From the NCBI GenBank assembly GCA_018609755.1, contig JAHENZ010000296.1, positions 1 to 34,493 of the forward strand: a stretch of 34,493 nt of DNA, written 5' to 3'. Positions 255-30,253 of this stretch are shown here, piece after piece. The translations under genes and the position numbers were made by a program. This stretch comes from Salinivenus sp. (GTDB lineage: Bacteria; Bacteroidota; Rhodothermia; Rhodothermales; Salinibacteraceae). Below the pieces are notes generated by a model that was not told the DNA's origin, made no database searches, and was given only the letters and a program-made list of their open reading frames with translations. Position 1 is the stretch's first letter. Each line of letters begins with the position of its first letter.

Positions 255-608
255 AGCGAGATTACTTTGTGTAGGGTTATTTAAACTTAAAAAAAGGATA
301 GAAAGCGTAAACAATCAAGTCGACGTATAAGGGTGCACGGCAATTGCATCTTCCACCCACGGACTTATCTTTGTCTTCGATTGAGGCAGTACGACCGTGC
401 GCTCCACTCCCACTCTCCCTTTCTCCCGCGCTTCTACGGCAGTATTTTCCATCGGAGACAGTCGAGCCTCCCGTCCTCAACAGAGACTTTTTAACATACG
501 ATTGCTCTGTATAAGGGTGTCCTGAGGTTTTTCCTGAACTTTGAAAGCAGGCGAATCCCTCCTACATTAAAGTAAAACGTGTTCCCCTGCCCACCGCTGC
601 GGCGTTTC
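255..608. other. Intergenic region upstream of the hybrid sensor
   Basis: This stretch of about 350 bp has no convincing gene. Positions 280-310 are AT-rich, with runs of T and A, and could hold the promoter of the small minus-strand lipoprotein. The 10-mer GTATAAGGGTG-like motif occurs twice (near 327 and near 510) in the same orientation. I see no hairpin followed by a T tract. The promoter of the downstream sensor cannot be fixed by eye. Confidence 0.4.
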
Positions 609-3600
609 ATGTTGTCCTGTCTTTTTCGTCTCTCGGCTCTCTCCGTCCTCGTCGGACTGCTCGGCGTGGGGCAGGCGTGGGGGCAGTCGCTTCCCTCCGA
701 CACGACGCGTCCGACGACGTCCCATCTGTACGATTCCAATGCGGGGGAGCTCCCCCATCGCTACGTGTCGCCGGAAACCTATGACGCCGACGTGCAGAAC
801 TGGGGCGCCACCCAGGATACGAGTGGCAATTTCTACGTGGCCAACACCAAAGGCGTGCTGATCTACGATGGGCACACGTGGCGCACCGTGCTTCCGGCCA
901 ATCGTAGTCTCGTCCGCTCGGTTGCGGCCGACGACCAGGGACGTGTGTTCGCCGGGGCGAAGAGGGAGTTCGGCGTGCTGCGACGCGACTCGAGCGGGCG
1001 GCGGGAGTACGTGTCTCTGCTCGACCACGTGCCGGAGAAGCATCGCTCCTTCAATGACGTCTGGAATACGGAGGTTACAAGTAAGGGTGTATACTTTCAC
1101 TCCTATCGGCGGCTCTTTCGCTGGAACCCGGAGACGAAGACGATGCAGTCCTGGGCCCCACCGGGAGACACGGAGTTCTATCAGGGCGGCGTCGCGCGCG
1201 ATACGTTTTTTGTGGGCGCCCCGGAACGCGGACTGATGGCCGTGCAGGACGACTCGCTGCGGATGGTGGCGGGCGGAGAGGCTTTTGCGGATCGGAGCGT
1301 CGTCTTTGTCACGTCTCATCCCCAGCACGGCGTTGTCGTGGGCACCTACGGCGGCCTTTTCGTGCGGGACGGGGGGGCGTTTCAGCGGTTGCCGACCGAG
1401 ATCGATCGGATCTTGGACGAAGGATGGCTGGCCGAAGGGACAAGCCTCTCGGACGGCACCCTTGCCATCAGCACCATTGAAGCGGGGCTTCTGCTCGTCG
1501 GTCCAAACGGTACGCTCCGGCGTCACCTCCACCCCCGTAACGAAGAGGTGCCGGACGTATACGTGGACGACGAGGGCGGACTTTGGGCCCTCCTCGATGG
1601 AGGATTGATGCGGTATGACCTCAAAGCACCGTTCACGGAGTACGGAGCCCAGGTCGGACTGGACGAAAACGTCAGGGACGTCGCCTGGCATCGCGGCTCC
1701 TTCTACGTGGCAACGCTTCAGAGCCTGTATCGCCGGCAGGTCACGGACGACACCCTGGCCATGGTGCCCGTGTCGACGGAGGAACAGAGTTGGTCGCTCG
1801 TCTCCATGGGAGACGATCTGCTCGTGGGCATCACACAGGGGCTGGAGCGGATTCGGCCCGACGGGACCGTGGACCGCCTCTTTGACGCCAATTATGTGTA
1901 TAAGCTCCGTCGCTCCCGGCACGATTCGTCGTTGGTGTACGCCGGAACCGATCGGGGCGTGCGCCTCGTGCGGAAGGCGGACACGGGCTGGGCCGTGAGT
2001 CCGCAGGTGCCGGGCCTTGATACCGAAGCCCGAACGCTTGCGGAAGCCAACGACAGCACCCTCTGGGTAGGGACGACGCACGACGGCGTGTATCGCGTTC
2101 GCCTGGGGGACCCCCTCGACTCGACGACCGTCGACCACTTTGGGACCGACCACGGTCTGCCTCCCGACCGCGTCGATCCGCAGCGATGGAACGGGAAGCT
2201 GGTGTTTGGGACCAGCACGGGCCTGATGCGCTTCGTAGAGACGCCCGCGCCCCACTTCGAACCGATGTCGTCGGTTGAGATGCCGCCCCTCGAACGCAAT
2301 GAGGGCGTCACGCGGTTGCAAACCGTCAAGACGGGAGAGGCCTGGGGCTTTACCGGATGGGGGCCGGGCCGGTGGGTCCAGCGCGACACGACGTGGCGGT
2401 GGACCCCCGGTCCGCTCCATCGGCTGCGGGGGCGATCACTCGTAACGTTTCACCCAGAGGAGAACGGAGAGGTGTTCTGGTTCGGGACGGAGAGAGGACT
2501 CCTGCGCTACGTGCCCGATGCCCCTCGTCCCAGTGCCCCGCCGCCCCCCCGTATTCAGGCGGTGCGTGTGCTCAACTCCGACTCCCTCCTTCCCCTCGCG
2601 GCGGTCTCAACTCCGTCCCTGTCGTACGCCTCCAACAACGTGACCATCGCCTACGGCACGCCGAGCCTTGCCCGGCCGTCGGCCATCGAGTACCAGTACC
2701 GCGTCCCCAGCCGATCGCCGGAGTGGTCTGACTGGACGTCCCAAACCGAACGGGAGCTGCAAAACCTGTCGCCGGGCCCGGTCACCTTTGCGGTACGGGC
2801 CCGCACCGCCTACGGCGATACGACCCGCACGGCCCGGGTGTCCTTCACCGTCCTGCCCCCCTGGTACCGCACCGGGTGGGCCTACGGCGGGTACCTCCTG
2901 CTCACTCTCGGCCTGATCGCGGGGGCTGTCCAGTGGCGCACCCGGCAGCTGCGCCGCCGCCAGGAGGAGCTGGAAGCAACCGTTGCCGAGCGGACCGACG
3001 AGATCCGCCAGCAGCGCGATCAGTTGGAAACCCAGGCCGAGCGCCTCAAGGAACTCGACGAAGCGAAGAGCCGCTTCTTCGCAAACCTGAGCCACGAATT
3101 TCGGACGCCGCTTACCCTCATCCGAGGGCCCGTGCAGGAGGTGCGCGAGCGTCTGCGCCGACGCGGCGACGGGCTCGATGAGGAGACCGAGCAGCTGGCC
3201 GTCGTCGAGCGCAACACCGACCGTCTCCGTCGCCTCGTGGACCAGCTTCTGGCCCTTGCCCGCATGGATGCCGGGGCCTACGAGTTGAGCGCTCGTCCCA
3301 CGGCCCTGAGCGACGAGACTCAGCGCATCGTTCAGGCCTTCACGCCCCTCGCCGAACGCAACGAGCTGACGCTCACCCTCGAGACGGAGGAGACAGAGGC
3401 CGCTGCTGAGCCGGTGGTCGTGGACCGCGAGGCCCTAGAGCACATCCTGGGCAACCTGCTTTCGAACGCCGTCAAGTTTACGCCGGAGGGGGGCCGCGTG
3501 ACCGTCACGGTGACGGACCACGAAGACCACATGGCAATCGCCGTGGCTGACACCGGCCCCGGCATTCCGGAGGAGGAGCAGGACACAGTGTTCGATCGGT

Positions 3601-4832
3601 TCGAGCGGACCGACGAGAAGCAGTCCGGCGACCAGGAAGGCGTGGGCATCGGCCTCGCGTTTGCGAAGGATCTGGTCGACCTGCACGGAGGCACCATCGA
3701 GCTGGACAGTGCGGCGGGCGAAGGCACAACCGTCACCGTCCGCTTCCGCCGCGGCACCGACCACCTGGCCGACGAGCATGTGGCCCAGGCCCCCGCGTCT
3801 GATTCGAGGGGGGATGCGCCACTCGAAAATAAAACGCCAGGGGACGGGCTGGCCGCAAGCGAACCCGACGCCGCGCCCCCCATACCGTCTGCCGCCAGCG
3901 ATGCTCCGGCAGGGGAGTCCGGTGTTTCCTCCGAAGAGGAGACGCCGGCAGATCGAGAGCAGACGGCCCAAACGGTCCTCGTCGTCGACGACAACGCCGA
4001 CGTGCGGCGCTACGTGCGCTCGGTGCTGGCACCGGACTACGCCGTGATTGAGGCCGCGGACGGACGAGAGGGCCTCGTCCGTGCCCGGGAGGCGAGGCCC
4101 GACTGCATCCTGGCCGACGTCATGATGCCGGAAATGGACGGGGTCACGATGGTCCGACACCTGAAGTCCGATCGTGCCACCGCCCACATTCCCGTCGTGA
4201 TGCTCACCGCCCGAGCCGGCACCGAGCACGAGATTGAGGGCCTGGAGGCCGGGGCCGACGACTACGTCACCAAGCCCTTCGACGCTAACGTGCTGCGGGC
4301 CCGTGTGGCCGGCATGATTGAGGTGCGTCGGCGCCTGCGCCGCCGCATCCAGGCGGAATTGGAGCACCGGCGCGGGGACGGGCCGGCCGGTGAGCGTGCA
4401 GAGGAGGGGGCTCCAGGGAGCGACGGCCCGGTTGCGGAACGAGCGGGCGGCGACCAGGCCCCCGACACCGCCCCGCCCCGGCTGGTGGTGTCCACCGCCT
4501 CGGACGACGAGCCCGACTTCGTGCGCGAGGTGCGATCTACCATCGAAGAGCACCTGGCCGACCCTGACCTCAGCGTCGAACGGCTGGCGAGCGCCGTGGC
4601 TGTAAGCCGGTCTACCCTCTACCGCCGACTTAAAGACCACGTCGACCAAACCCCCTCCCAGTTCATCCGGCAGGTCCGCATCGAGCACGGCGCCCGGCTG
4701 CTGCGGCAGGGCGAGGGCACCGTCAGTGAGGTTGCCTACGCCGTCGGCTTCGAGAGTCTCTCCTACTTTAGCAGTCAGTTCCGCGAGCATAAGGGCCAGT
4801 CGCCGTCCGCGTACGTCGAGGCGATGGAATGA
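609..4832 (+). CDS. Hybrid two-component system (HTCS): sensor kinase, receiver and AraC regulator in one protein
   Basis: A one-piece signal transducer of about 1407 residues. The ATG at 609 is preferred over a GTG at 579 because a signal peptide (LSALSVLVGLLGVGQAWG) follows it directly. Residues about 30-660 form a Reg_prop-type beta-propeller sensor in the periplasm. Residues about 671-754 are a Y_Y_Y domain, and 756-776 a transmembrane helix leading into a coiled coil. HisKA has the phospho-acceptor His829 in NLSHEFRTPL. The HATPase has an N box near 944-957 (GNLLSNAVKF), G1 DTGPGIP near 981 and G2 GVGIGLAF near 1011. After an acidic linker, a receiver (about 1118-1235) carries VVDD, phospho-acceptor Asp1170 in ADVMMPEMDG and the KPF lysine. 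The AraC/XylS helix-turn-helix domain fills 1309-1407. In Bacteroidota such proteins sense glycans and switch on polysaccharide loci. No SusC/D or glycoside hydrolase gene is visible here, so target and ligand are unknown. Confidence 0.95.
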   Translation: MLSCLFRLSALSVLVGLLGVGQAWGQSLPSDTTRPTTSHLYDSNAGELPHRYVSPETYDADVQNWGATQDTSGNFYVANTKGVLIYDGHTWRTVLPANRSLVRSVAADDQGRVFAGAKREFGVLRRDSSGRREYVSLLDHVPEKHRSFNDVWNTEVTSKGVYFHSYRRLFRWNPETKTMQSWAPPGDTEFYQGGVARDTFFVGAPERGLMAVQDDSLRMVAGGEAFADRSVVFVTSHPQHGVVVGTYGGLFVRDGGAFQRLPTEIDRILDEGWLAEGTSLSDGTLAISTIEAGLLLVGPNGTLRRHLHPRNEEVPDVYVDDEGGLWALLDGGLMRYDLKAPFTEYGAQVGLDENVRDVAWHRGSFYVATLQSLYRRQVTDDTLAMVPVSTEEQSWSLVSMGDDLLVGITQGLERIRPDGTVDRLFDANYVYKLRRSRHDSSLVYAGTDRGVRLVRKADTGWAVSPQVPGLDTEARTLAEANDSTLWVGTTHDGVYRVRLGDPLDSTTVDHFGTDHGLPPDRVDPQRWNGKLVFGTSTGLMRFVETPAPHFEPMSSVEMPPLERNEGVTRLQTVKTGEAWGFTGWGPGRWVQRDTTWRWTPGPLHRLRGRSLVTFHPEENGEVFWFGTERGLLRYVPDAPRPSAPPPPRIQAVRVLNSDSLLPLAAVSTPSLSYASNNVTIAYGTPSLARPSAIEYQYRVPSRSPEWSDWTSQTERELQNLSPGPVTFAVRARTAYGDTTRTARVSFTVLPPWYRTGWAYGGYLLLTLGLIAGAVQWRTRQLRRRQEELEATVAERTDEIRQQRDQLETQAERLKELDEAKSRFFANLSHEFRTPLTLIRGPVQEVRERLRRRGDGLDEETEQLAVVERNTDRLRRLVDQLLALARMDAGAYELSARPTALSDETQRIVQAFTPLAERNELTLTLETEETEAAAEPVVVDREALEHILGNLLSNAVKFTPEGGRVTVTVTDHEDHMAIAVADTGPGIPEEEQDTVFDRFERTDEKQSGDQEGVGIGLAFAKDLVDLHGGTIELDSAAGEGTTVTVRFRRGTDHLADEHVAQAPASDSRGDAPLENKTPGDGLAASEPDAAPPIPSAASDAPAGESGVSSEEETPADREQTAQTVLVVDDNADVRRYVRSVLAPDYAVIEAADGREGLVRAREARPDCILADVMMPEMDGVTMVRHLKSDRATAHIPVVMLTARAGTEHEIEGLEAGADDYVTKPFDANVLRARVAGMIEVRRRLRRRIQAELEHRRGDGPAGERAEEGAPGSDGPVAERAGGDQAPDTAPPRLVVSTASDDEPDFVREVRSTIEEHLADPDLSVERLASAVAVSRSTLYRRLKDHVDQTPSQFIRQVRIEHGARLLRQGEGTVSEVAYAVGFESLSYFSSQFREHKGQSPSAYVEAME

Positions 4833-7926: not shown

Positions 7927-8400
7927 TCGTCCGTCGTTTCCTGCACAGCGTCTTCCGTCTGTAGTACATTTGACTCCCGCCATTCCAGTGCACATCCCCA
8001 TAATTTTTGCGAAGGAATCCCGTAGGAGAGCGCCTTTCGAGGGGTACGGTCGGGGGACGCAATGCCCCGTGGGCTCAACTTCGCATGCGTCCAGGGGAAC
8101 TGAGACCGGTGTAGGTCGCCGGTGGAATTGCGGGGAAGGAGGACCGACCAGACGTCAGCCCCGGCACGGCATGTTCGAAACGTCGAGCCGAATTACCCGC
8201 TCAATTTTCCTTGTTGCAACATGGTGAAAAGGAATTGCAACGTGTGTGCAAGTAATTTTCCGAGGCGGTGTGTATTTACTGGTGAGAACCGCCTTCTCTG
8301 AAGTCCTCGAGCAGAGGCGGGACGAGACAGCTGGATTGTCAGAGGAGGCTTCGCTGAGAGCTGTGAAATCGTTGTCTACAAGTCACTTCTCTTGGTCGGC
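7927..8400. other. Intergenic region between the two secreted paralogs
   Basis: About 470 bp with no convincing gene. The first 250 bases look like ordinary GC-rich spacer. Positions 8190-8280 are AT-rich and contain repeated TTGCAA words and two AATTTTCC copies, so the promoter of the giant gene probably lies here. I see no terminator for the upstream gene. The start at 8401 has no Shine-Dalgarno. Confidence 0.4.
8262..8295 (+). promoter_or_regulatory. Hairpin in the leader of the giant secreted gene
   Basis: AGGCGGT at 8263-8269 pairs with ACCGCCT at 8288-8294, extended by one G-T pair, around an 18-base loop. It lies about 105 bases before the ATG at 8401. It could be an operator or a leader stem; no T tract follows, so it is not a typical terminator. 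Support is the base pairing only. Confidence 0.3.
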
Positions 8401-11400
8401 ATGTTTTTATTGAACGGGTTTTTTTCGAAGCACTGGAGCGGCGGGGCCTCGTTGCTGCTCGTCGCGGCCCTTCTTCTCGGGGCGTCGCCTGCGTACGGTC
8501 AGATCTACGTGGACAAGGATGCGAGTGGCGCCGGCAACGGCTCCACCTGGGCTGACGCCTACACCGACTTGCAGACGGCCATTGACAATGCCACGGGCAG
8601 CGACGAGCTCTGGGTGGCCGAGGGCATCTACACGCCGGACAGCGAGAGTGACAGCTTTACGCTCCCTGGTGCGAAGGACGGTCTTGAGGTCTACGGCGGG
8701 TTCGAGGGGACAGAGTCGACCCGTTCGGAGCGAGACGCTGGGGATCATCCGACGGTTCTGTCCGGCGACGTAGACGGAGATGACAACACCAGCGCGGTCG
8801 GCGTGACGGAAGCGCCCGGGGACATTAACGGCACCAACAGCAATCACGTGCTGGTTCTAGACGGCACGACCGACGCGATCACGACGGCTACTGTGTTCGA
8901 CGGTCTCACTGTCACGGCAGGACAAGCGACGGGGACTGGAAGCGAAGATAGTGGGGCCGGACTTTATTGTGATGCGGGTGCATCCGCAGCCGAGTGTAGT
9001 CCGACGCTTCGGAATGTGGTGTTTGTGGGGAACACGGCCGATCAGGGAGGAGGGGCTATTTACCTCAACTCGGATGGGGGCGATGCGAGTCCTCGCATCG
9101 TGAACACCCTGTTTGTCAACAATGCCGCCCAGAACGGGGGGGGCATCTACACCGTATCATTAGCCGGAGGCACGTCAAAGCCCCGCATCCGGACGAGTGT
9201 GTTTACCAATAACACGGCCTCTGGAAGCGGAGGGGCGCTCTACGTTCCTGAGTCTGCCACGGAGCCGGGGACGGGATTTCCGCAGATCTCAAACAGCATT
9301 CTATGGGGGAATGCCCCGGATCAGGTCGACATCGTCAATAGCGCCGACGTGGCGTTTTCCCATTCAATTGTCGAAGGCGGGATTCCGGGAACTGACAATG
9401 GGGGCAACAGAACAGCGGATCCACAATTTCAGAATGCAGCCAATCCGGCCGGCCCCGACGGGCGCTTCGCCACGCGAGACGACGGTGTGAGGGTGCAGCG
9501 CTCGTCGCCTGCAATCGACGCCGGAACCAATGATTCGGTGTCTGTCGCTGTGGACTTAACGGGGATAGAGCGTATTCAAGACCGGGAATTGAGCGGCACG
9601 GCGACTGTGGACATCGGGGCCTATGAGAGTGCAATCTTCCGGGTTGAAGCCGGAAACAGTGGACCCCAGGACGGCGCCTCATGGAGCACTGCGTACGCGA
9701 GTTTGCAGGACGCTCTCGCGCAGAGCGGCCCGACGGACGAAATTTGGATCGCTGAAGGGGTTTATTACCCGGATGTGGGTGAGGATGTCTCTGATGGAAA
9801 GACTGACACCAGCTTTGTGATTGGGGGGCGACAGGACGGGTTGGGCCTCTACGGGGGCTTTTCGGGGACCGAGTCGAGCCGATCCGCGCGGGATCCCGGT
9901 AGCAATCCGACGGTGCTTTCGGGGGATGTGGACGAGAATGACGATCCGTTCGAGCCCAACACGGACAGCGATGGAGACCCCGACACGCCGACACAGACGG
10001 ATCACATCCGTGGGAATAACAGCAACCACGTCCTTTTCCTCGATGGAACGTCCAACGCCCTTACGGAGAAGACCTTGATCGACGGGGTCACCGTAACCGC
10101 GGGCGAAGCAACTGGGTCAGAACAGGCCGGCGGAGGATTGTATTGTGATGGGGAGGGAAATGGATCAGGGACATCGAGCAGCAAATTCACCTGCAGCCCG
10201 ACGTTAAGAAACGTCGTCTTTGCCGGGAATAGGGCCGAGTTTAGCGGCGGGGCCCTCCAGAACAACGGGAGGAATGATGGGGGCAGCAGTCCGCGGCTCA
10301 CGAATGTCGTCTTTGTCGGAAATGCCACGTACCGAACGGCGGGGGGAACGAAAGGAGGGGCCCTTTATAATGATGCGGTTGGCGGCATCGACGGCGGCAC
10401 GAGTAGTCCCGTGATCACGAACACGACCTTTTATGCCAATCGTGCTGCAAAGGGCGGTGTGATGTTCAGTGATGCATTCGATAATGCGACGGCCCAGCCC
10501 CAAATTACGAACTCTATTCTGTGGGACAACTCTGCTTCGGGTTCGGGAGACGAGATCAACAACGCCAACGGGGCCTCGCCGGTCCTTGCTCACACGATTA
10601 TTCAAGGCGGCGTCAATGGCACGGGCGTCGCCGGAGACCCCAATACTGATGGGGGTAACAACCTTGACCAAGATCCGCTTCTGGAGTATGCACCCTTGCC
10701 AGCGGGCGACGACGGCACGTTCGGCACGGACGACGACGGCCTCCACCTCACGCCCGGCTCGCCCGCGATCGATGCGGGGGACGGAACGGCCGTCAGTCTC
10801 GCCAACGACCTGACGGGGGCGAGCCGCGTGCAGAACGGGACCGTCGACATTGGCGCGTACGAAGGTGGACGCGACTCAGCGCGCACCATTTACGTCGATT
10901 CGGGGAACACGTCGGGTACCGTCGACGGCACGTCCTGGACGACGGCCGATACCACGCTGCAGGACACCACCAGCCTGGCCAGCGGAGCCCTCGGCTACGC
11001 CACCGGCAACGACGAGATCTGGGTGGCCGAGGGCGTGTACACCCCGGCGGGATCGGAGACCAGCCTCACAATCACCGGTCGCCAGGACGGGCTCAAGATC
11101 TACGGGGGCTTCGAGAGCGGCGACGCGTTCGCCGACCGCGCTCCGGGCGACCATCCCGTCGTCCTCAGCGGAGACGTGGGCGGGGACGACGACAATAAAA
11201 CCGCCAGTGGTGTGACCCCTACGGCTGGTGACATCAAAGGAAGCAACAGCCACCACGTCCTGACACTGAACAGCAGTGCGCAGGACATCACACCCAGTAC
11301 CGTCATCGAGGGACTGACGATCACCGGCGGACAGGCCAATGGATCGGGCCCCGCGACGCAGGGAGGCGGGCTCTACTGCTCCGGAGTGGACGGCGTGTGC

Positions 11401-14400
11401 ACCCCGGTACTGCGCAACCTTGTGTTTGTCGGCAATACGGCCGATGGTGGGGGAGCCATCTACAACGCTGCCGTGGGCTTCAACAGAAGCGGCGCGGCAA
11501 GCCCCACGATCGTAAATTCGGTATTTGCGGAGAACCGTGCCCAGGATGGGGGAGCGATCCTCAACAGTGCACAGAGCCCCGGCGCCACCGCCGCCACTGC
11601 AAGCCCGACAATAACAAACACGACGTTTGTTGGCAACACGGCGTCGAACAACGGGGGAGCGCTCTTTAATGGAGAGTCCTCCGACGAAGGAACCAGCAGC
11701 GACCCCGACCTCACCAATGTTATTCTGTACGGCAACACCGCTGCCAGCGGAGGCCAGAGCTACAGCGTGAATGGAGCGACGCCGTCGCTTGACTACACGC
11801 TCGTCGAGGGAGGCTGCCCGTCCGACGCCAACTGCTCGAATCTCGTTACCGACGACCCGCGCCTCGCCGACACCACCGACGCGGACGGCCCCGACGGCAC
11901 GTTCGCCACCGTCGACGACGGCCTCAATCTCACGCCGGGCTCCCCGGCCCTCGACGCCGGAGACAACAGCTCTGTTTCCGCGAGTACAGACTTGACAAGG
12001 GCTCCTCGAACGCAGGACTTCGATGGCGATGCCACGGCCACCGTCAACATCGGCGCCTACGAACCCCCCTCCCCGATTGCCCCCGCCGTCGTCGATGCAT
12101 CCACGTTCGACATATCGCAAAACGACGCGAGCATTACTGGGAGCGTCAATCCGGGGGGGCTTCCGACCACCGTACGGGTCCAGTACGGTCGGGACACCGC
12201 CTTTGCAGCCGACTCCGTGACGACGGCTGCCAGCGATATGACGGGCTATGTGGCTCAGTCCGTCAGCGGTCAAATTACGGGTCTCGATCCTGGAACCACG
12301 TACAGCTTTCGTCTCCAGGCTGAAAACAGTGCTGGGATCACCACCGGGAACATACGCACCTTCACAACAAAGGTGGCGGTCCCGCAAGTGACGACCCGGG
12401 CACCTGTGTCCATCACCGACACCAGTGCTTTGGTTCGAGGAACACTCAATCCAAGAGGAGGAGCGACCCGTCTGTACGTGGCCCTTTCGAGAGCGAGCAG
12501 TGGCACCACCATGCTTTCTCCGATCGATACGGTCCGGACGAACCTGCTTTCCGATCAGTTGGTGAGTGTGACGATTGACACCTTGCGGTCCAGCACCGAG
12601 TACCGCTACGAAATCGTGGCGGCCAACGCAGCGGACTCACTGAAGGGAGGACAACAGTTGTTCAAGACTGCTAATGTTCTACCGAAAGCGGTCGATGATA
12701 CCGCCACGACCATCGAGGCTCAGTCGGTGATTATCGATGTGTTGGAGAACGACACTGATGAAGATGGGACCCTTGATACGACCTCTGTTGAAATCACTCA
12801 TGCTCCGGAAGCAGGAACGGCCTCGTATGAGGGAGAAGGAGCGGTTCAGTACCGTCATGACGGCAGCTCGACGCTGAGCGATCAATTCCGATACCGAGTC
12901 GCGGACGACGCCGGTCGGTACGACACAGCGGCGGTCGACGTGCAGGTTCAAGAAATGGCTCTCACCGCGCAGTCGGACACGGTCGAGCTTGGGGGGCAGC
13001 GGGTGGAGCAGCCCGGAGATACGACCGACGTGACAATTGAGAATACGGGGGAGGTGCCGCTGACGGGGCTGGAAGCCGCCATACAGGGGGCAGGGAGCGG
13101 GGCCTTTGCCTCGGTGGTCGACACGGGAGAGGACTCCCTGGCGTCCGGGCAGACCCGAACGGTCGAGGTTGCGTTTCGCCCGGAGGAGGTGGGGGGGCGG
13201 CAGGCGGTGCTGACGGTCACCTCGGCGGACGGGCCGGAGGCCGTTGCTCGCCTCACGGGACGAGGGGTTTCGGTCGACGTGCAGACGGCGTCGCTGGTTC
13301 GTGGAACGGAGGCCTCCGTATCGGTGACCGTGGACGGCGGATTCGTTCCAAAGGGACGCAGCGAGCTCTTCGTTCGGAAAGGAGGGACGACAGCATACCA
13401 GTCCGTGCCCCTGCAGATCGAGGAGATTGAGACGAGCGGCCGGGTGTTGCTGACCGGCACGATCCCGGCGGGCCTGATCACAGAGAGGGGCATTGACTAC
13501 TATGGGGTGCTTTCGGACGAGACGAGTACGATTGCTGTGCCGGGAGCTTCCCCCGCACAAGCGGCCGCGGCGCCCCGGCATCGTTCGGTACACGTTGAGG
13601 CGATCACAGCTCAAGGCCCGCTTGTGGCCGAAGAGTACCGCATGATCTCCGTCCCGATGCGGCCCGAGGAGCGAGGGATCCGGGAGGTGTTTGAGTCGAA
13701 TTACGACTCGTACGACCCGTCAACCTGGCGGCTCTTTCGGTGGGATCCCTCGTCGGGGGACTACCGGGAGTATCCGGAGATCGACACGCTGCGTCCCGGC
13801 GATGGGGCGTGGCTGGTAACGTCGGACAGCAGTGCCCTCACGCTCCGGGATGCGCACACCGTCGAAGCGAGCACTCCGTATCGGATCCCGCTGTCCGAGG
13901 GATGGAATCAGGTGGGCGTTCCTTTCGGGTTTGCAGTGCCGTGGGACAGCGTGCAGGCCGCGACGGACATCGCCCCGGCTGATCTCGGGGGGCCGGTCGC
14001 TTACGGAGATACCAGCAGCGGGACGAGCAGCCAACGGACCTACCAGTACGACCGGTCGGCCCTGCGGCCCTGGCAGGGATATTTTGTGTATAACGGCACG
14101 GGGGCACCGGATACGCTCGTCGTGCCTCCGGTGGGAGAAGGGACCGGCGGGACGCAAATGTCGACGGCCCAAAACGGGAGCGACGAGGGGATGCGCAAGG
14201 CTGCCAGTGAATCCTCGTATTCCCTTCGAGTCACGGCGCACGCGGACGAGACAACGCAGCGGATCCGGCTCGGACTCAGGTCCGGGGCAGCGCCGGGCCG
14301 CGATCGGTTCGACCGCGCGCAGGCGCCCCCGATTGGGAAGTCGGTCCGACTTGCGATTATGGAAGAGGTGCACGGAGAGCCCATCCCCCACGCCAAGAGC

Positions 14401-14952
14401 GTGAAGCCGTCAGACACGCAGGGACAGTCCTGGCGTCTCATGCTTTCGGGGGGCGGAACCGGCAACGAAGAACCGTCGGTCCGGCTGCACCTGCACGAGC
14501 AGGGCACGCTGCCGGAAGGGTATGAGCGATACGTACTGGATCCTGCCACCGGCCGCCGACTGGCACCGGGAGCCCCCCTCTCGCTGGCAGAAGGGGAGGA
14601 ACGGACCCTAAAGGTCATACTGGGAACGAAGTCGTATGCGCAAGCCGAGAGTGAAGGAATCGGCTTAGAGGCATTTGCCAACGAGCTCCGGGGCAATTAT
14701 CCGAATCCGTTTAGGGACGAAACGACGATCGCCTACACGTTGAAGGAGGAGCAAGAGGTGACCGTCACAGTGTACAACGTGCTGGGGCAAACCGTGCGCA
14801 CGCTCGTTGAGGAGGAGAAGGACGCAGGGCGTCACCGCGTTCGATGGACAGGGGACAACCGGTACGGGGACCCGGTCGGGAGCGGGGTGTACTTCTACCG
14901 GATCGACGCTGGGGACTTTACGGCGACCCGCAAGATGATGGTGGTCCGATAG
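8401..14952 (+). CDS. Giant modular secreted beta-helix protein with T9SS type A sorting domain
   Basis: A 2183-residue exported protein. The ATG at 8401 is preferred to a TTG at 8392; a hydrophobic export signal ends near SPAYGQ. Three copies of the same roughly 400-residue beta-helix module follow (about 34-406, 413-820 and 829-1221). Each opens with a xxVDxxxxxxxGxSW block and DE(L/I)W(V/I)AEG(I/V)Y. Each carries VFVGNxAxxGGAIYN-type repeats and closes with SPA(I/L)DAG and (D/N)IGAYE. Then come fibronectin-III-like repeats (about 1225-1420), a cadherin/VCBS-like domain (1427-1518, with DVLENDTDEDG), a choice-of-anchor-D/ASPM-like sandwich (about 1520-1620) and a long T9SS-cargo region. The sorting domain (about 2094-2183) has YPNPF, VYNVLGQTVRTL and GSGVYFYRI. 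It is probably a surface adhesin or matrix protein. Its stop lies only 4 bases from the end of the convergent membrane-protein gene. Confidence 0.9.
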   Translation: MFLLNGFFSKHWSGGASLLLVAALLLGASPAYGQIYVDKDASGAGNGSTWADAYTDLQTAIDNATGSDELWVAEGIYTPDSESDSFTLPGAKDGLEVYGGFEGTESTRSERDAGDHPTVLSGDVDGDDNTSAVGVTEAPGDINGTNSNHVLVLDGTTDAITTATVFDGLTVTAGQATGTGSEDSGAGLYCDAGASAAECSPTLRNVVFVGNTADQGGGAIYLNSDGGDASPRIVNTLFVNNAAQNGGGIYTVSLAGGTSKPRIRTSVFTNNTASGSGGALYVPESATEPGTGFPQISNSILWGNAPDQVDIVNSADVAFSHSIVEGGIPGTDNGGNRTADPQFQNAANPAGPDGRFATRDDGVRVQRSSPAIDAGTNDSVSVAVDLTGIERIQDRELSGTATVDIGAYESAIFRVEAGNSGPQDGASWSTAYASLQDALAQSGPTDEIWIAEGVYYPDVGEDVSDGKTDTSFVIGGRQDGLGLYGGFSGTESSRSARDPGSNPTVLSGDVDENDDPFEPNTDSDGDPDTPTQTDHIRGNNSNHVLFLDGTSNALTEKTLIDGVTVTAGEATGSEQAGGGLYCDGEGNGSGTSSSKFTCSPTLRNVVFAGNRAEFSGGALQNNGRNDGGSSPRLTNVVFVGNATYRTAGGTKGGALYNDAVGGIDGGTSSPVITNTTFYANRAAKGGVMFSDAFDNATAQPQITNSILWDNSASGSGDEINNANGASPVLAHTIIQGGVNGTGVAGDPNTDGGNNLDQDPLLEYAPLPAGDDGTFGTDDDGLHLTPGSPAIDAGDGTAVSLANDLTGASRVQNGTVDIGAYEGGRDSARTIYVDSGNTSGTVDGTSWTTADTTLQDTTSLASGALGYATGNDEIWVAEGVYTPAGSETSLTITGRQDGLKIYGGFESGDAFADRAPGDHPVVLSGDVGGDDDNKTASGVTPTAGDIKGSNSHHVLTLNSSAQDITPSTVIEGLTITGGQANGSGPATQGGGLYCSGVDGVCTPVLRNLVFVGNTADGGGAIYNAAVGFNRSGAASPTIVNSVFAENRAQDGGAILNSAQSPGATAATASPTITNTTFVGNTASNNGGALFNGESSDEGTSSDPDLTNVILYGNTAASGGQSYSVNGATPSLDYTLVEGGCPSDANCSNLVTDDPRLADTTDADGPDGTFATVDDGLNLTPGSPALDAGDNSSVSASTDLTRAPRTQDFDGDATATVNIGAYEPPSPIAPAVVDASTFDISQNDASITGSVNPGGLPTTVRVQYGRDTAFAADSVTTAASDMTGYVAQSVSGQITGLDPGTTYSFRLQAENSAGITTGNIRTFTTKVAVPQVTTRAPVSITDTSALVRGTLNPRGGATRLYVALSRASSGTTMLSPIDTVRTNLLSDQLVSVTIDTLRSSTEYRYEIVAANAADSLKGGQQLFKTANVLPKAVDDTATTIEAQSVIIDVLENDTDEDGTLDTTSVEITHAPEAGTASYEGEGAVQYRHDGSSTLSDQFRYRVADDAGRYDTAAVDVQVQEMALTAQSDTVELGGQRVEQPGDTTDVTIENTGEVPLTGLEAAIQGAGSGAFASVVDTGEDSLASGQTRTVEVAFRPEEVGGRQAVLTVTSADGPEAVARLTGRGVSVDVQTASLVRGTEASVSVTVDGGFVPKGRSELFVRKGGTTAYQSVPLQIEEIETSGRVLLTGTIPAGLITERGIDYYGVLSDETSTIAVPGASPAQAAAAPRHRSVHVEAITAQGPLVAEEYRMISVPMRPEERGIREVFESNYDSYDPSTWRLFRWDPSSGDYREYPEIDTLRPGDGAWLVTSDSSALTLRDAHTVEASTPYRIPLSEGWNQVGVPFGFAVPWDSVQAATDIAPADLGGPVAYGDTSSGTSSQRTYQYDRSALRPWQGYFVYNGTGAPDTLVVPPVGEGTGGTQMSTAQNGSDEGMRKAASESSYSLRVTAHADETTQRIRLGLRSGAAPGRDRFDRAQAPPIGKSVRLAIMEEVHGEPIPHAKSVKPSDTQGQSWRLMLSGGGTGNEEPSVRLHLHEQGTLPEGYERYVLDPATGRRLAPGAPLSLAEGEERTLKVILGTKSYAQAESEGIGLEAFANELRGNYPNPFRDETTIAYTLKEEQEVTVTVYNVLGQTVRTLVEEEKDAGRHRVRWTGDNRYGDPVGSGVYFYRIDAGDFTATRKMMVVR

Positions 14953-25729: not shown

Positions 25730-26251
25730 TTACAGCTCAAACTGCGGGTCGACCTCCGTCTGGGCCACGTGGTTCACGTAGTTGCTAAACGTTTTGATGC
25801 CGATGAGGGCGTTGATCTCATATAGCTGGGCTCGGTCCACCCCTTTCTGCTGGAGACTGTCGAGATCCTCGTCGTCGAGCCAGCCGCGCTTGTCGAGCAT
25901 CAGGCGCGTGGCCTGCACGAGCACGCGGAGCCGGTCGTCGGAGGGAAGACCGCCGCTGTTGATGGTGTTGACCGTTTCGCGGTCGAGACCCGCGGACACC
26001 GCCATTTTGCCGTGGGCACTGGTGCAGTAGTGGCAGTCGTTATAGCGCGAGACTGCAAGGAGCACAGCCTCCTGTTCCGGTTTCGTGAGTTCGCTCCCCT
26101 CTTCAAGAAGATTGGTCGTCGCCAGGTAGAGTTTGGCGGCGGCCGGATTGTGTTCACTCAGCTCCTTGATGAGGTTGGGCAAGAAGCCGAGGGCCTCTCG
26201 GGCCGAGTCCTGGACCTCCTGGGTGGCAGACGCAGAAGCAGCACGGGGCAT
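25730..26251 (-). CDS. Carboxymuconolactone decarboxylase (AhpD-like) family protein, intact CxxC
   Basis: A 173-residue all-helical CMD/AhpD-like protein. The catalytic set is readable as Glu61, Cys73, Cys76 and His80 in PEQEAVLLAVSRYNDCHYC followed by TSAHG. This has the same spacing as Glu118, Cys130, Cys133 and His137 of mycobacterial AhpD, with Tyr75 at the place of AhpD His132. Proteins of this type act as peroxidase partners or thiol-disulfide redox enzymes, so a role against peroxide is likely. No AhpC lies nearby. It is the second gene of a two-gene operon, 44 bases after its Cys-less paralog. The substrate and electron donor are not readable. Confidence 0.9.
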   Translation of the reverse strand: MPRAASASATQEVQDSAREALGFLPNLIKELSEHNPAAAKLYLATTNLLEEGSELTKPEQEAVLLAVSRYNDCHYCTSAHGKMAVSAGLDRETVNTINSGGLPSDDRLRVLVQATRLMLDKRGWLDDEDLDSLQQKGVDRAQLYEINALIGIKTFSNYVNHVAQTEVDPQFEL

Positions 26252-26295: not shown

Positions 26296-26871
26296 TTATC
26301 CGAGCACAAGTCTTCGCATTTCCATGGTCGACGGTTCTTCGGGAACGTTCTCGAGTGTGTCGGCGGTGGACTGAAGGCGATCGTCAATCTCCGGGTTCGC
26401 AATGTGGTTTACGAAGCTGCTGAAGGTTTTCATGCCGTAGAGCGCAAAAATCTCATACAGTTCTCCGCGACTGACGCCTCGCTCTTCCAGATCCGTCACC
26501 GTCTCCGGGTCGAGCCATCCGCGTTCGTCGTAGGTCTGGCGTGTGGCCTCAACGAGGGCCCGCAGTCGCTCGTCCTGCGGCAGTTTGCCGGCGAGAAGAC
26601 GGTCAATGACGCTCGGGGAAAGTCCTGCGTCCAGCGCGAGGCGAGCATGCGCCACACCGTCGTATCGGCTGTCGTGATGGGCCGAGATTGCTAGAAGAAC
26701 GGCCTGTTGCTCGGCAGGCGAAAGCAATCCATCCATGAGCGCCTCGTCGGCCGCCACGTACACAGCGCCCGGTACACCGGAGTGCGCGTTCATGGCTTCC
26801 AAAAAATTCGGTAGGCCTCCATACGCCTGTTCCGCGTTCTGGCGCACGTCGTCGGTGAGAGAAGAAGACAT
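26296..26871 (-). CDS. CMD/AhpD-like paralog lacking the catalytic cysteines
   Basis: A 191-residue paralog of the adjacent CMD gene; the ATG at 26871 gives MSSSLTDDVRQNAEQA. Upstream in-frame codons would add 55 residues with no similarity, so I reject them. The alignment is continuous along the whole length, for example LPNF/LPNL, DERGWLD/DKRGWLD and GMKTFSSFVNHIA/GIKTFSNYVNHVA. At the active site AEQQAVLLAISAHHDSRYD replaces PEQEAVLLAVSRYNDCHYC. Glu becomes Gln56, the two Cys become Ser68 and Asp71, and only His75 is kept. It therefore cannot do CxxC redox chemistry. It may be a structural partner forming mixed oligomers, or it may have another activity. It is translated first in the operon. 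Confidence 0.85.
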   Translation of the reverse strand: MSSSLTDDVRQNAEQAYGGLPNFLEAMNAHSGVPGAVYVAADEALMDGLLSPAEQQAVLLAISAHHDSRYDGVAHARLALDAGLSPSVIDRLLAGKLPQDERLRALVEATRQTYDERGWLDPETVTDLEERGVSRGELYEIFALYGMKTFSSFVNHIANPEIDDRLQSTADTLENVPEEPSTMEMRRLVLG

Positions 26872-27172: not shown

Positions 27173-27279
27173 GCATCCGCAGTTGGCCGTACGGAGGCGT
27201 GCGGCGGCAGTGAGAGCGATTATTTCAATGAGGTCAAACTTTTTTGCGAGTCAAAACGTATAACGGGAGCAAGTTATTA

Positions 27280-27308
27280 AGTAGTACGATGCCGAATTGA
27301 GTACTACT
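27280..27308 (+). promoter_or_regulatory. Perfect 8-bp inverted repeat in the lipoprotein leader
   Basis: AGTAGTAC at 27280-27287 and GTACTACT at 27301-27308 are exact reverse complements with a 13-base spacer, so the arm centres are 21 bp apart, two helical turns. It is about 50 bases before the ATG. It could be an operator for a dimeric regulator or an RNA stem. No T tract follows. Confidence 0.4.
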
Positions 27309-27358
27309 GAATTCCTCCCCGTATGTCCCATTGACCAAGGCTGGAGGCCCACACTACC

Positions 27359-28468
27359 ATGAATGATTTCTATCGCACCGTCTCGGCCGTCGCTTCTCGA
27401 GCCCGCCTCCCTCTCGTTGTGGGGCTTCTCGCGTTTGGGCTCACGGGATGTTATACCCAACTGAAGACCGCGGATCCGGGGTATCGAACCCAGGCCGCAG
27501 AGACGCAAAAGAAGGCGCAAGCCGAGGAGCCGGTCTACGCCGACGAGTACCGACGGGCGTATCGAACGGACGGGTATGAAGGCTACGGGGAGAGTAGCGA
27601 CCTGTACGAGTATAAGTACCAGTACAAATACAAGTACGGAGCGCCCTATCAGTACCGTGCACGCTATGGCGGCTATGGCGGATGGTGCGAGGACGCCTTT
27701 TTCCACGACCCGTGGTACTACGACTCCTGGTGTAGCCCGTCGTACGGCTCCCGGTTCTCGTTGTCGTTCCACTACGGCTCGCCGTATTATCACCACCGGT
27801 CCTGGGGGCGGCGCTACTACTCGTCGAGGTACGGCTACGGCTATGGCGGAGGCCCGTACTCGAATTATTACTTCGGGGATCAGTATTACTACTACGGGGA
27901 CGTGGACCGAGACGCTGACGAAGACGACTACCTGTCTCGGCGTGCCACCATTCGAGGGACGACCAATGCGGGGCAGTCCCCTGGCCGCGATGGGGGAGGC
28001 ACGACGAATGCTTCGTCCGAACGGGGCATCCACTCGTCCTCTTCCGGAGGGCGCATTGGGCGGACGCGTGGCACCTCTGCGTCGGAGCGTGAGCGTGCGA
28101 CGCGCACGGCGAGAACCCGTACGGATCGAAGCTGGGCCGTCGAACGGTCGGACCGCACGAGGGACGGACGCATTGGCCGCTCCCGCGAGGCGACCGTCGA
28201 CCGCTCTCGTGACGCTCGTACCCGATCGGACGACCGGACCCGCACGCGGCGGGCTCGACCCGCCGACACCCCCAATTCGCGCGTTCGCGACCGATCGTCT
28301 CGGTCGAACAGAGGACAGTCGGCCGGCCGGTCACAGACGAGAGACCGATCCTCGTCCAGTACTCGGACGAGGACGCGCTCGTCCTCAGATAATGGCTCAC
28401 AGTCCTCCTCGTCCGGCTCGTCCGGTCGCTCGCGGGATCGCGGAAGCGATGACGGGGACTCGCGGTAG
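27359..28468 (+). CDS. Lipoprotein with Tyr-rich middle and Arg/Ser-rich C-terminal half
   Basis: A 369-residue predicted lipoprotein. The start ATG has GGAGG 11 bases upstream. Residues 16-31 give a signal peptide with lipobox LTGC (Cys31). Residues about 55-180 are very rich in Tyr and Gly (EYKYQYKYKYG, YGYGYGGGPYSNYYFG, YYYYGDV) and include two Cys. Residues about 185-369 are low-complexity Arg/Ser/Thr/Asp with RS and RT dipeptides throughout (for example RTARTRTDRS, STRTRTRSSS). After about residue 93 there is no lysine; the positive charge is all Arg. No conserved domain is recognised. The basic tail stands out against the acidic proteins around it. It could bind polyanions (DNA, acidic polysaccharide or peptidoglycan) at the periplasmic or outer face; this is inference. 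The FadL-like gene follows after 114 bases. Confidence 0.8.
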   Translation: MNDFYRTVSAVASRARLPLVVGLLAFGLTGCYTQLKTADPGYRTQAAETQKKAQAEEPVYADEYRRAYRTDGYEGYGESSDLYEYKYQYKYKYGAPYQYRARYGGYGGWCEDAFFHDPWYYDSWCSPSYGSRFSLSFHYGSPYYHHRSWGRRYYSSRYGYGYGGGPYSNYYFGDQYYYYGDVDRDADEDDYLSRRATIRGTTNAGQSPGRDGGGTTNASSERGIHSSSSGGRIGRTRGTSASERERATRTARTRTDRSWAVERSDRTRDGRIGRSREATVDRSRDARTRSDDRTRTRRARPADTPNSRVRDRSSRSNRGQSAGRSQTRDRSSSSTRTRTRSSSDNGSQSSSSGSSGRSRDRGSDDGDSR

Positions 28469-28473
28469 GAAGC

Positions 28474-28499
28474 GACCGGGGACGCCGTTTCCGCCGGTC
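28474..28499 (+). terminator. Hairpin just after the lipoprotein stop
   Basis: GACCGG at 28474-28479 pairs exactly with CCGGTC at 28494-28499 around a 14-base loop, starting five bases after the stop codon. No T run follows, so it is at best a weak or factor-assisted terminator or an RNA-protecting stem. Confidence 0.25.
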
Positions 28500-28582
28500 C
28501 AGATCGGCCGTTAAACAGTCACACCCGTAGTATGTCTGTTGGGGGCGGGGCCGCTTCACTTCTCTTTAATTTTCCACAATTC

Positions 28583-30253
28583 ATGTCGCTTCGTTCTCCT
28601 CGATTCTTGTTGATTCTCTTGCTGGGATTTGGTCTGGCCGGTGCGGCCACAGGGCAGACCCCCAGAGATGTAACCTTCGAAGATGTCACACGATATTCGG
28701 AGCGCCTTCCGGTCGCTGGAGGTCCTCAGGCGGGCATGGCAGGGGCGGGGCTGTTTGCAGGAATAGATGGGCCGGGAACGCTCTTCGGCAATCCTGCAGG
28801 ACTCGGATGGCTGTCGGGCTCCGTCATTGAGGGAGATTTTGCCGTACAGCGGGCCCAGTCAAATACGCAGTTCGAGACTCCAACTGCTCGCACCTCGGCG
28901 GATCGCACTGTGAGTGACTATCAACTCGGATCGCTCGCGGGGGCCTATTCCTTCCCGACGGAACGCGGATCGCTGGTCATTGGGATCTCGCTTCACCAGG
29001 CGAACACGTACGAGCGCGGCTTTGACGTCTCCGGGGCCAATGACGCTACCTCCATTACCGGCACGTTTCTTCCGAACAGCTTTGAGATCGACGGGGACGA
29101 GATCGTATTCGACGACGTGCGCTCCCGCATCGCCTACGAGGCCGGAGCCATTGACTATTCACAGGCGGTGTTTGACGACGGGGACTATCCGTTTTTCGCA
29201 GCGGCGAATCCCAGCACCCCGGCCGTAGATGATCAACTGGAGCTTCGGCAGCAGGACAACGTCCGCACGTCGGGACAGCTGAACGAGCTGGCGTCCGGGG
29301 TGGCCGTGGAGGTAGCTCCGGGCATCATGCTGGGCGGCGGGCTGAACCTCCAGTTCGGCACGTACACGTCCGAGCGGTTCTACCGGGAGATGGACGCGAG
29401 TAATATTGAGAGGGACCAGATATGTACGTCGGAGTCTAATCCTCTCGGACTGTGCCCTCCCGACGATCCCAGTAATCCGCAAACCCCTTATGACCCCTAC
29501 TTTTTGGAAGGAACCAGTCTGGAGGGCTTTCGGGAAGTACAGATGGAGGAGCGCATCGACACCGAAGTCAGCGGCGCCAACTTTCGGTTTGGTCTTTCGG
29601 CCCAAATGACCTCCTCTTTGCGCGGGGGGCTCCTCATCGAGTCGCCAACGTGGCTGGACTTAACGCGGGAGTACGGGACGGAAATCCGGACGAGATTCGA
29701 CTGTGACTTCTCTTCGTCCCCAAATTGTCCGCAGGGAGGCGTCGAGGGATTGGAAAGCGGAGATCTCACCGGGGAAGATCGCGAGTATCGAATTCGCACG
29801 CCGTGGCGGCTTGGGGGAGGACTGCAGTACACCTTTGCTGGACTGACGATTGCGGGAGACGTGGAAATGATCGATTGGACGCAAGCCGACGTGAGCGCCG
29901 ATGACGCGAGCTTCACGGGGCTCAACCGGCAGATTGAGGACCTGGAGGCGACCTTCAACACCCGGGTGGGAGCCGAGTACGCGATTGACCAGGCGGCTTT
30001 CCGGGTCGGAGTGGCCCGTCGGCCGACCCCCGGAACCCGGGAGTTTGAAGACATTGACGGCCAGACGACGAACGGAGATCGCCTGTTTCTCTCCGGGGGA
30101 GTTAGCTACATGCCCAGTGACCTGTTTGCCCTTCACCTGAACTGGCTCCAGGAGCGGTTCGACAACCAGTTCGCTTCGTACGCCCAGGGTCCGGTCGTGC
30201 GTGAGCGGTTGGCCCGGAACCAGTTCCAGATTGGAATTACATACCGCCCGTAG
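28583..30253 (+). CDS. Outer-membrane beta-barrel protein, OmpP1/FadL/PorV-like
   Basis: About 556 residues. The ATG at 28583 is chosen because a signal peptide (RFLLILLLGFGLAGAATG) follows at once; an ATG at 28532 would add 17 odd residues. After the signal, AGGPQAGMAGAGLFAGIDGP and TLFGNPAGLGWLSG form the N-terminal hatch motif typical of FadL/OmpP1-type barrels. The rest alternates in barrel strands and ends in FQIGITYRP, a terminal strand with an aromatic residue near its start. Two predicted loops each carry a Cys pair (residues around 285-300, CTSESNPLGLC, and around 372-385, CDFSSSPNC), suggesting disulfide-stapled loops. FadL relatives pass hydrophobic molecules; PorV relatives serve T9SS. 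I cannot decide between these from sequence alone. Confidence 0.8.
   Translation: MSLRSPRFLLILLLGFGLAGAATGQTPRDVTFEDVTRYSERLPVAGGPQAGMAGAGLFAGIDGPGTLFGNPAGLGWLSGSVIEGDFAVQRAQSNTQFETPTARTSADRTVSDYQLGSLAGAYSFPTERGSLVIGISLHQANTYERGFDVSGANDATSITGTFLPNSFEIDGDEIVFDDVRSRIAYEAGAIDYSQAVFDDGDYPFFAAANPSTPAVDDQLELRQQDNVRTSGQLNELASGVAVEVAPGIMLGGGLNLQFGTYTSERFYREMDASNIERDQICTSESNPLGLCPPDDPSNPQTPYDPYFLEGTSLEGFREVQMEERIDTEVSGANFRFGLSAQMTSSLRGGLLIESPTWLDLTREYGTEIRTRFDCDFSSSPNCPQGGVEGLESGDLTGEDREYRIRTPWRLGGGLQYTFAGLTIAGDVEMIDWTQADVSADDASFTGLNRQIEDLEATFNTRVGAEYAIDQAAFRVGVARRPTPGTREFEDIDGQTTNGDRLFLSGGVSYMPSDLFALHLNWLQERFDNQFASYAQGPVVRERLARNQFQIGITYRP

Follow-up and report, generated by a model that had tools for sequence, protein, structure and literature searches.

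A tyrosine-rich, arginine-tailed lipoprotein family encoded beside a FadL-fold outer-membrane protein gene in most sampled Bacteroidota

At least two described arrangements join a FadL-type outer-membrane protein (OMP) to a dedicated partner. The Marinobacter operon aupAB encodes a FadL-type OMP, AupA, and an interacting second envelope protein, AupB, which resides in the inner membrane and is encoded downstream (PMC5989066). BamG and the BamG2–BamH2 pair are likewise cases of a FadL-fold OMP whose gene neighbours that of a lipoprotein (PMC12578637, PMC12611786), and bamG2-bamH2 is a putative operon (PMC12578637). Surface-exposed lipoproteins of Bacteroidota carry a lipoprotein export signal (LES) of acidic residues soon after the Cys, e.g. 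K-(D/E)2, a rule derived in Bacteroidia and Flavobacteriia, which do not include the class studied here (PMC5080379). Phase separation of the eukaryotic sticker protein FUS is driven by contacts between Tyr residues in one block and Arg residues in another (PMC8847598).

We analysed one contig stretch of 34,493 nt from Salinivenus sp. (hereafter the window) that encodes a Tyr-rich, Arg-tailed lipoprotein followed by a FadL-fold OMP (Table 1). The locus resembles BamG and BamG2–BamH2 in its gene neighbours and the Marinobacter system in joining a FadL-type OMP to a second envelope protein; unlike AupB, this partner is an upstream-encoded lipoprotein, and no Tyr/Arg layout was seen in the text on AupA–AupB. 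The Tyr-rich loop described for BamA (PMC12578637) should not be confused with the Tyr-rich lipoprotein. Our literature search on VolA–FadL found nothing relevant.

Table 1. Coordinates of the lipoprotein–OMP gene pair and its parts in the window
Feature	Position	Strand	Basis
Tyr-rich, Arg-tailed lipoprotein gene	27359..28468	+	ORF, ATG start, 369 aa; homologue searches
Signal peptide, aa 1–30, lipobox GLTG before Cys31	27359..27448	+	Sequence
Mature N-terminal half, aa 31–191, Tyr-rich, net about −5, predicted disordered	27449..27931	+	Composition, AlphaFold2
Arg/Ser/Thr tail, aa 192–369, 44 Arg, 0 Lys, net +23	27932..28465	+	Composition; tail dN/dS 0.22 against L002
FadL-fold OMP gene, listed with 573 aa; probable start at ATG 28583	28532..30253	+	AlphaFold2, VIA Z, NPA motif, adjacency

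The layout of the lipoprotein is as the preliminary description had it: a lipobox followed by CYTQL, with cleavage before Cys31; a Tyr/Gly-rich middle (residues 71–185, Tyr 26%, Gly 16%); and an Arg/Ser/Thr-rich half devoid of Lys (residues 186–369, Arg 24%, Ser 21%, Thr 11%, Gly 11%, Asp 10%). Signal peptide, lipobox and invariant Cys identify the product as a bacterial lipoprotein. The mature protein contains 36 Tyr and 56 Arg, and the family is a diblock, the centre of mass lying at 0.22 of the mature length for Tyr and at 0.60 for Arg. Depending on the boundary chosen, the low-complexity tail is 178–184 aa long with 24–25% Arg. It had been called long and basic; the length stands, and the basicity is modest rather than extreme (44 Arg and 25 Asp/Glu in residues 186–369, giving a net charge of +19). 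The charge and disorder profiles that had been proposed as a check showed opposite net charges in the N-terminal half (about −5) and the tail (+19 to +23); the mature front half is predicted to be disordered, its AlphaFold2 pLDDT being approximately 40–59 over most of its length and about 45 for the half with a 61-row alignment. Two antisense ORFs overlie the gene (27441–28559 and 27251–28033, minus strand) and are probably by-products of GC-rich sequence, because all homologues found retain the sense frame.

This family is real, conserved, and unnamed. The window lipoprotein matched no Pfam or NCBIfam model, in keeping with the earlier remark that no named family has this layout; 61 and 10 of its homologues gave only stray sub-threshold matches to curated models, a PDB sequence search gave no significant match, and a literature search on Tyr/Arg-rich Bacteroidota lipoproteins found no description. 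A literature search on the annotation 'vitellogenin II' of flavobacterial homologues yielded nothing relevant, and a scan of contigs of named organisms found no relatives. Within the genus, single-sequence searches detected homologues in 11 of 12 other genomes, and they did so in 19 of 60 relatives, some other families included. A profile of 61 N-terminal halves, with 25 tail residues included, detected members in 134 of the 164 class genomes. Cys31 and Tyr32 are invariant in all 61 aligned sequences, and G30, T33, and Q34 are conserved in at least 90%. The suggested search for homologues keeping both halves was positive, since lipobox, Tyr middle, and Arg tail are all retained in 72 homologues of the order at genomic G+C contents of 45–72%. 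Their mature front parts measure 133–276 aa with 14–31% Tyr and are net negative in 59 cases, and their tails measure 178–395 aa with 13–31% Arg, 0–3.7% Lys, and a net charge of +22 to +78 (medians per protein, 35 Tyr and 64 Arg). Eighteen distant loci from other orders of the class (G+C 39–64%) mostly encode tails with 14–22% Arg and few Lys, the exceptions being L201 with 7% Arg, L196 with 9% Lys, and L198 with a weaker tail. Because the profile held only 25 tail residues, retention of the tail at these loci is largely independent evidence.

Such a composition could in principle be drift, i.e. low-complexity sequence set by G+C content behind a signal peptide, and the preliminary description had named alignment over the signal peptide only, with the rest varying with G+C, as the outcome that would point this way. 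The opposite was found: homologues align further, and across the 72 homologues the net charge per residue shows no correlation with G+C (rho −0.13, p 0.27). Nei–Gojobori dN/dS between close pairs is 0.07–0.43 for the tail (0.22 for the window against its nearest relative) and 0.02–0.66 for the middle, and both halves are under purifying selection. The other window proteins are acidic, as had been assumed (D+E 12.5% vs R+K 8.1%), with an R/(R+K) of 0.85, given which the absence of Lys from the window tail alone is modest evidence (probability of 0 Lys among 44 basic residues about 9e-4); the family-wide evidence is strong, with a mean tail Lys content of 0.7% over the 72 homologues at G+C contents down to 45%. 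Outside the class, in genomes below 45% G+C, R/(R+K) is 0.92 in the last 100 residues vs 0.43 in the adjacent OMP, and Arg is strongly favoured over Lys at 30–45% G+C, even in genomes favouring Lys. Drift would fit the partial rise of the tail Arg fraction with G+C (rho 0.40, 72 homologues) and the Gly- or Asn-richer tails of relatives outside the class, but given the dN/dS values, the G+C-independent charge, and the R/(R+K) of low-G+C genomes we reject it as almost certainly wrong. The odd tail is a selected feature, because similar proteins adjoin the same FadL-like OMP gene in most sampled Bacteroidota, and an extreme Tyr-then-Arg composition can evidently be maintained by selection outside the cytoplasm. 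The proposed connection to a salt-in, halophilic lifestyle is not supported, as the layout is equally present outside the genus, low-G+C Bacteroidota of other classes included.

The conserved FadL-fold OMP gene downstream is new here and was absent from the preliminary description. Its AlphaFold2 model is a confident barrel (pLDDT 84.7) with FadL, TodX, and TbuX of the FadL/Toluene_X family as structural neighbours at Z 32–34.5 (E. coli FadL, VIA Z 34.5), followed at lower rank by BamG (Z 30.9–31.6) and PorV (Z 25). The NPA hatch motif (N87, P88, A89) is invariant and, together with the FadL-type barrel, places the protein structurally in the FadL family. It differs from the known members in its low identity (approximately 12–17%), in a Toluene_X score of 20.2 bits for the window copy, under the Pfam cut-off of 29.7, and in being paired phylum-wide with a Tyr/Arg lipoprotein. 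Within the order, 84 of 94 genomes encode a homologue, and within the phylum 310 of 392 do (E up to 1e-10); none was found in the viral contigs and plasmids searched. Identity with the canonical FadL of the genome was rejected because a third locus (C257) fits Toluene_X far better. The AupA model (NCBIfam NF041571) did not match the window OMP and matched one of 30 OMPs at 3.6e-4, which leaves the group outside that family.

Counted from the predicted cleavage site, the OMP N-terminus before NPA appears to share with BamG an extension of about 10 residues over that of FadL. An alternative is that the OMP is a BamG-like paralogue forming, with its lipoprotein, a specialised outer-membrane assembly module similar to BamG2–BamH2. 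The putative bamG2-bamH2 operon provides a precedent (PMC12578637), 25 of 30 OMPs weakly match the BamG model (best 4e-11), and BamG chains are among the structural neighbours. All bit scores are nevertheless well under the cut-off (30.4 bits for the window OMP against 250; NCBIfam NF053685), and each of 13 genomes has its best BamG match at another locus (220–278 bits), which in this genome is G000 C141 (219.7 bits), so the OMP was rejected as the BamG of its genome. In the structural comparison the scores of FadL and TodX are no lower than those of BamG, and the lipoprotein is predicted to be disordered and lacks an LES, whereas BamH is a folded surface protein. We consider an assembly role rather unlikely. 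The OMP would add to FadL and BamG a third FadL-fold type that has a partner of its own.

In the first 18 loci compared, the next same-strand gene was invariably homologous to the window OMP gene. Across Bacteroidota the two genes are adjacent at approximately 142 of 155 OMP loci vs 1 of 118 control neighbouring gene pairs, counting as paired any exported Tyr-containing protein upstream of the OMP whose C-terminus has more Arg than Lys; this criterion is compositional and matches distant phylum-level proteins without alignment, such that individual assignments may be wrong. Pairing was scored at 74 of 79 loci in the order automatically and at 73 after a false match (L113) was dropped (three misses are contig ends), at 17 of 18 loci in other orders of the class (18 with L196 added by eye), and at 51 of 58 elsewhere in the phylum, where 39 of the 51 paired proteins have a lipobox. 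The intergenic gap is 63–114 nt, and a weak terminator-like match in it is not above chance; promoter and terminator scans gave signals too faint to be informative. A proS gene adjoins 17 of 19 loci but is missing from the window, from L020, and from all 18 loci in other orders; it was therefore rejected as a functional partner, and the pair persists where the neighbourhood has changed. Within the class, the genes lie apart in two genomes (G014, G015), one (G021) has the OMP without a lipoprotein directly upstream, and two (G036, G038) retain a lipoprotein-type gene with no recognisable OMP beside it. The lipoprotein may thus act without the OMP, as judged from the separated and the OMP-less cases. 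No described function was found for this gene pair of most sampled Bacteroidota, and its lipoprotein partner has no family model.

Tyr follows the Cys directly (+2) in all 72 homologues of the order, and 71 of the 72 have no acidic residue at positions +2 to +7, i.e. no LES. By a rule that was derived outside this class, the missing signal speaks for the periplasmic side of the outer membrane rather than for the surface location suggested previously. That the rule comes from other classes (PMC5080379) leaves room for a surface adhesive or coat, exported by a signal of another kind, whose Tyr/Arg chain would bind polysaccharide, DNA, or neighbouring cells. Its composition is like that of sticky low-complexity polymers; set against the missing acidic residues, we regard a surface role as rather improbable. 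On the periplasmic side, the lipoprotein could be a tether between outer membrane and cell wall, the Arg tail binding peptidoglycan carboxylates non-covalently and stabilising the envelope, with the OMP an incidental neighbour. The lipobox, the absence of an LES, and a tail that is long, basic and presumably disordered in every member of the order would suit such a tether, as would mltG-like and proS-like neighbours in some lineages and the OMP-less genes of G036 and G038. It leaves the Tyr-rich half and the phylum-wide adjacency to a FadL-fold OMP unexplained, however, and the Pfam search revealed no known peptidoglycan-binding domain in the lipoprotein; we deem it unlikely.

With layout, selection on both halves, OMP fold, and adjacency across Bacteroidota established computationally, we tentatively prefer, as possible rather than probable, an outer-membrane-anchored, likely periplasm-facing, disordered lipoprotein that is a conserved partner of the downstream FadL-fold OMP. 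This channel-partner role is the most economical reading because some other FadL-type OMPs also have a partner of their own (aupAB, bamG2-bamH2). Tyr and Arg would serve as stickers through which the chains self-associate and/or collect round the channel below the membrane, the Arg tail may hold an anionic envelope polymer or surface, e.g. peptidoglycan, and the pair might thereby organise or serve a FadL-type route for a hydrophobic compound. The sticker role is suggested by analogy with FUS-type proteins, in which a Tyr-rich block also precedes an Arg-rich one. The likeness is one of composition and block order: the window protein is an exported lipoprotein in which no RNA-binding domain was found, and its tail is of the RS/RT rather than the RGG kind. 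A further-reaching version, an ancient phylum-wide Tyr/Arg diblock lipoprotein forming a FUS-like condensate or gel at the inner side of the outer membrane and working with a FadL-type channel, seems improbable to us; if true, it would be an envelope assembly of a previously undescribed kind. With this pair one could test directly if disordered proteins of the sticker type organise a bacterial outer membrane.

Several loci depart from the common arrangement. At L254, L260, L264, L278, and L299 a second, short lipoprotein of the GCYTV or GCYVQ type is encoded between the Tyr-rich lipoprotein and the OMP. The lipoprotein beside the OMP carries a CxxCH-like motif at L246–L252 (CKSCHE, CGSCHE, CKSCHD), which suggests a haem or metal site in this lineage. 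Outside the class, L283, L286, and L295 encode Gly-Arg-rich tails nearer to RGG repeats than to the RS/RT tail; the L283 and L286 genomes are probably Flavobacterium-like. Either decay or an assembly error would account for L285 (G318), where the lipoprotein is encoded in two separate frames and a TAG falls within the OMP match. In the window itself, two neighbouring carboxymuconolactone-decarboxylase-like genes (25730–26251 and 26296–26871, minus strand) precede the lipoprotein gene and point away from it, and two very long plus-strand ORFs (579–4832, 1417 aa; 8392–14952, 2186 aa) presumably encode the T9SS-related proteins mentioned in the preliminary description.
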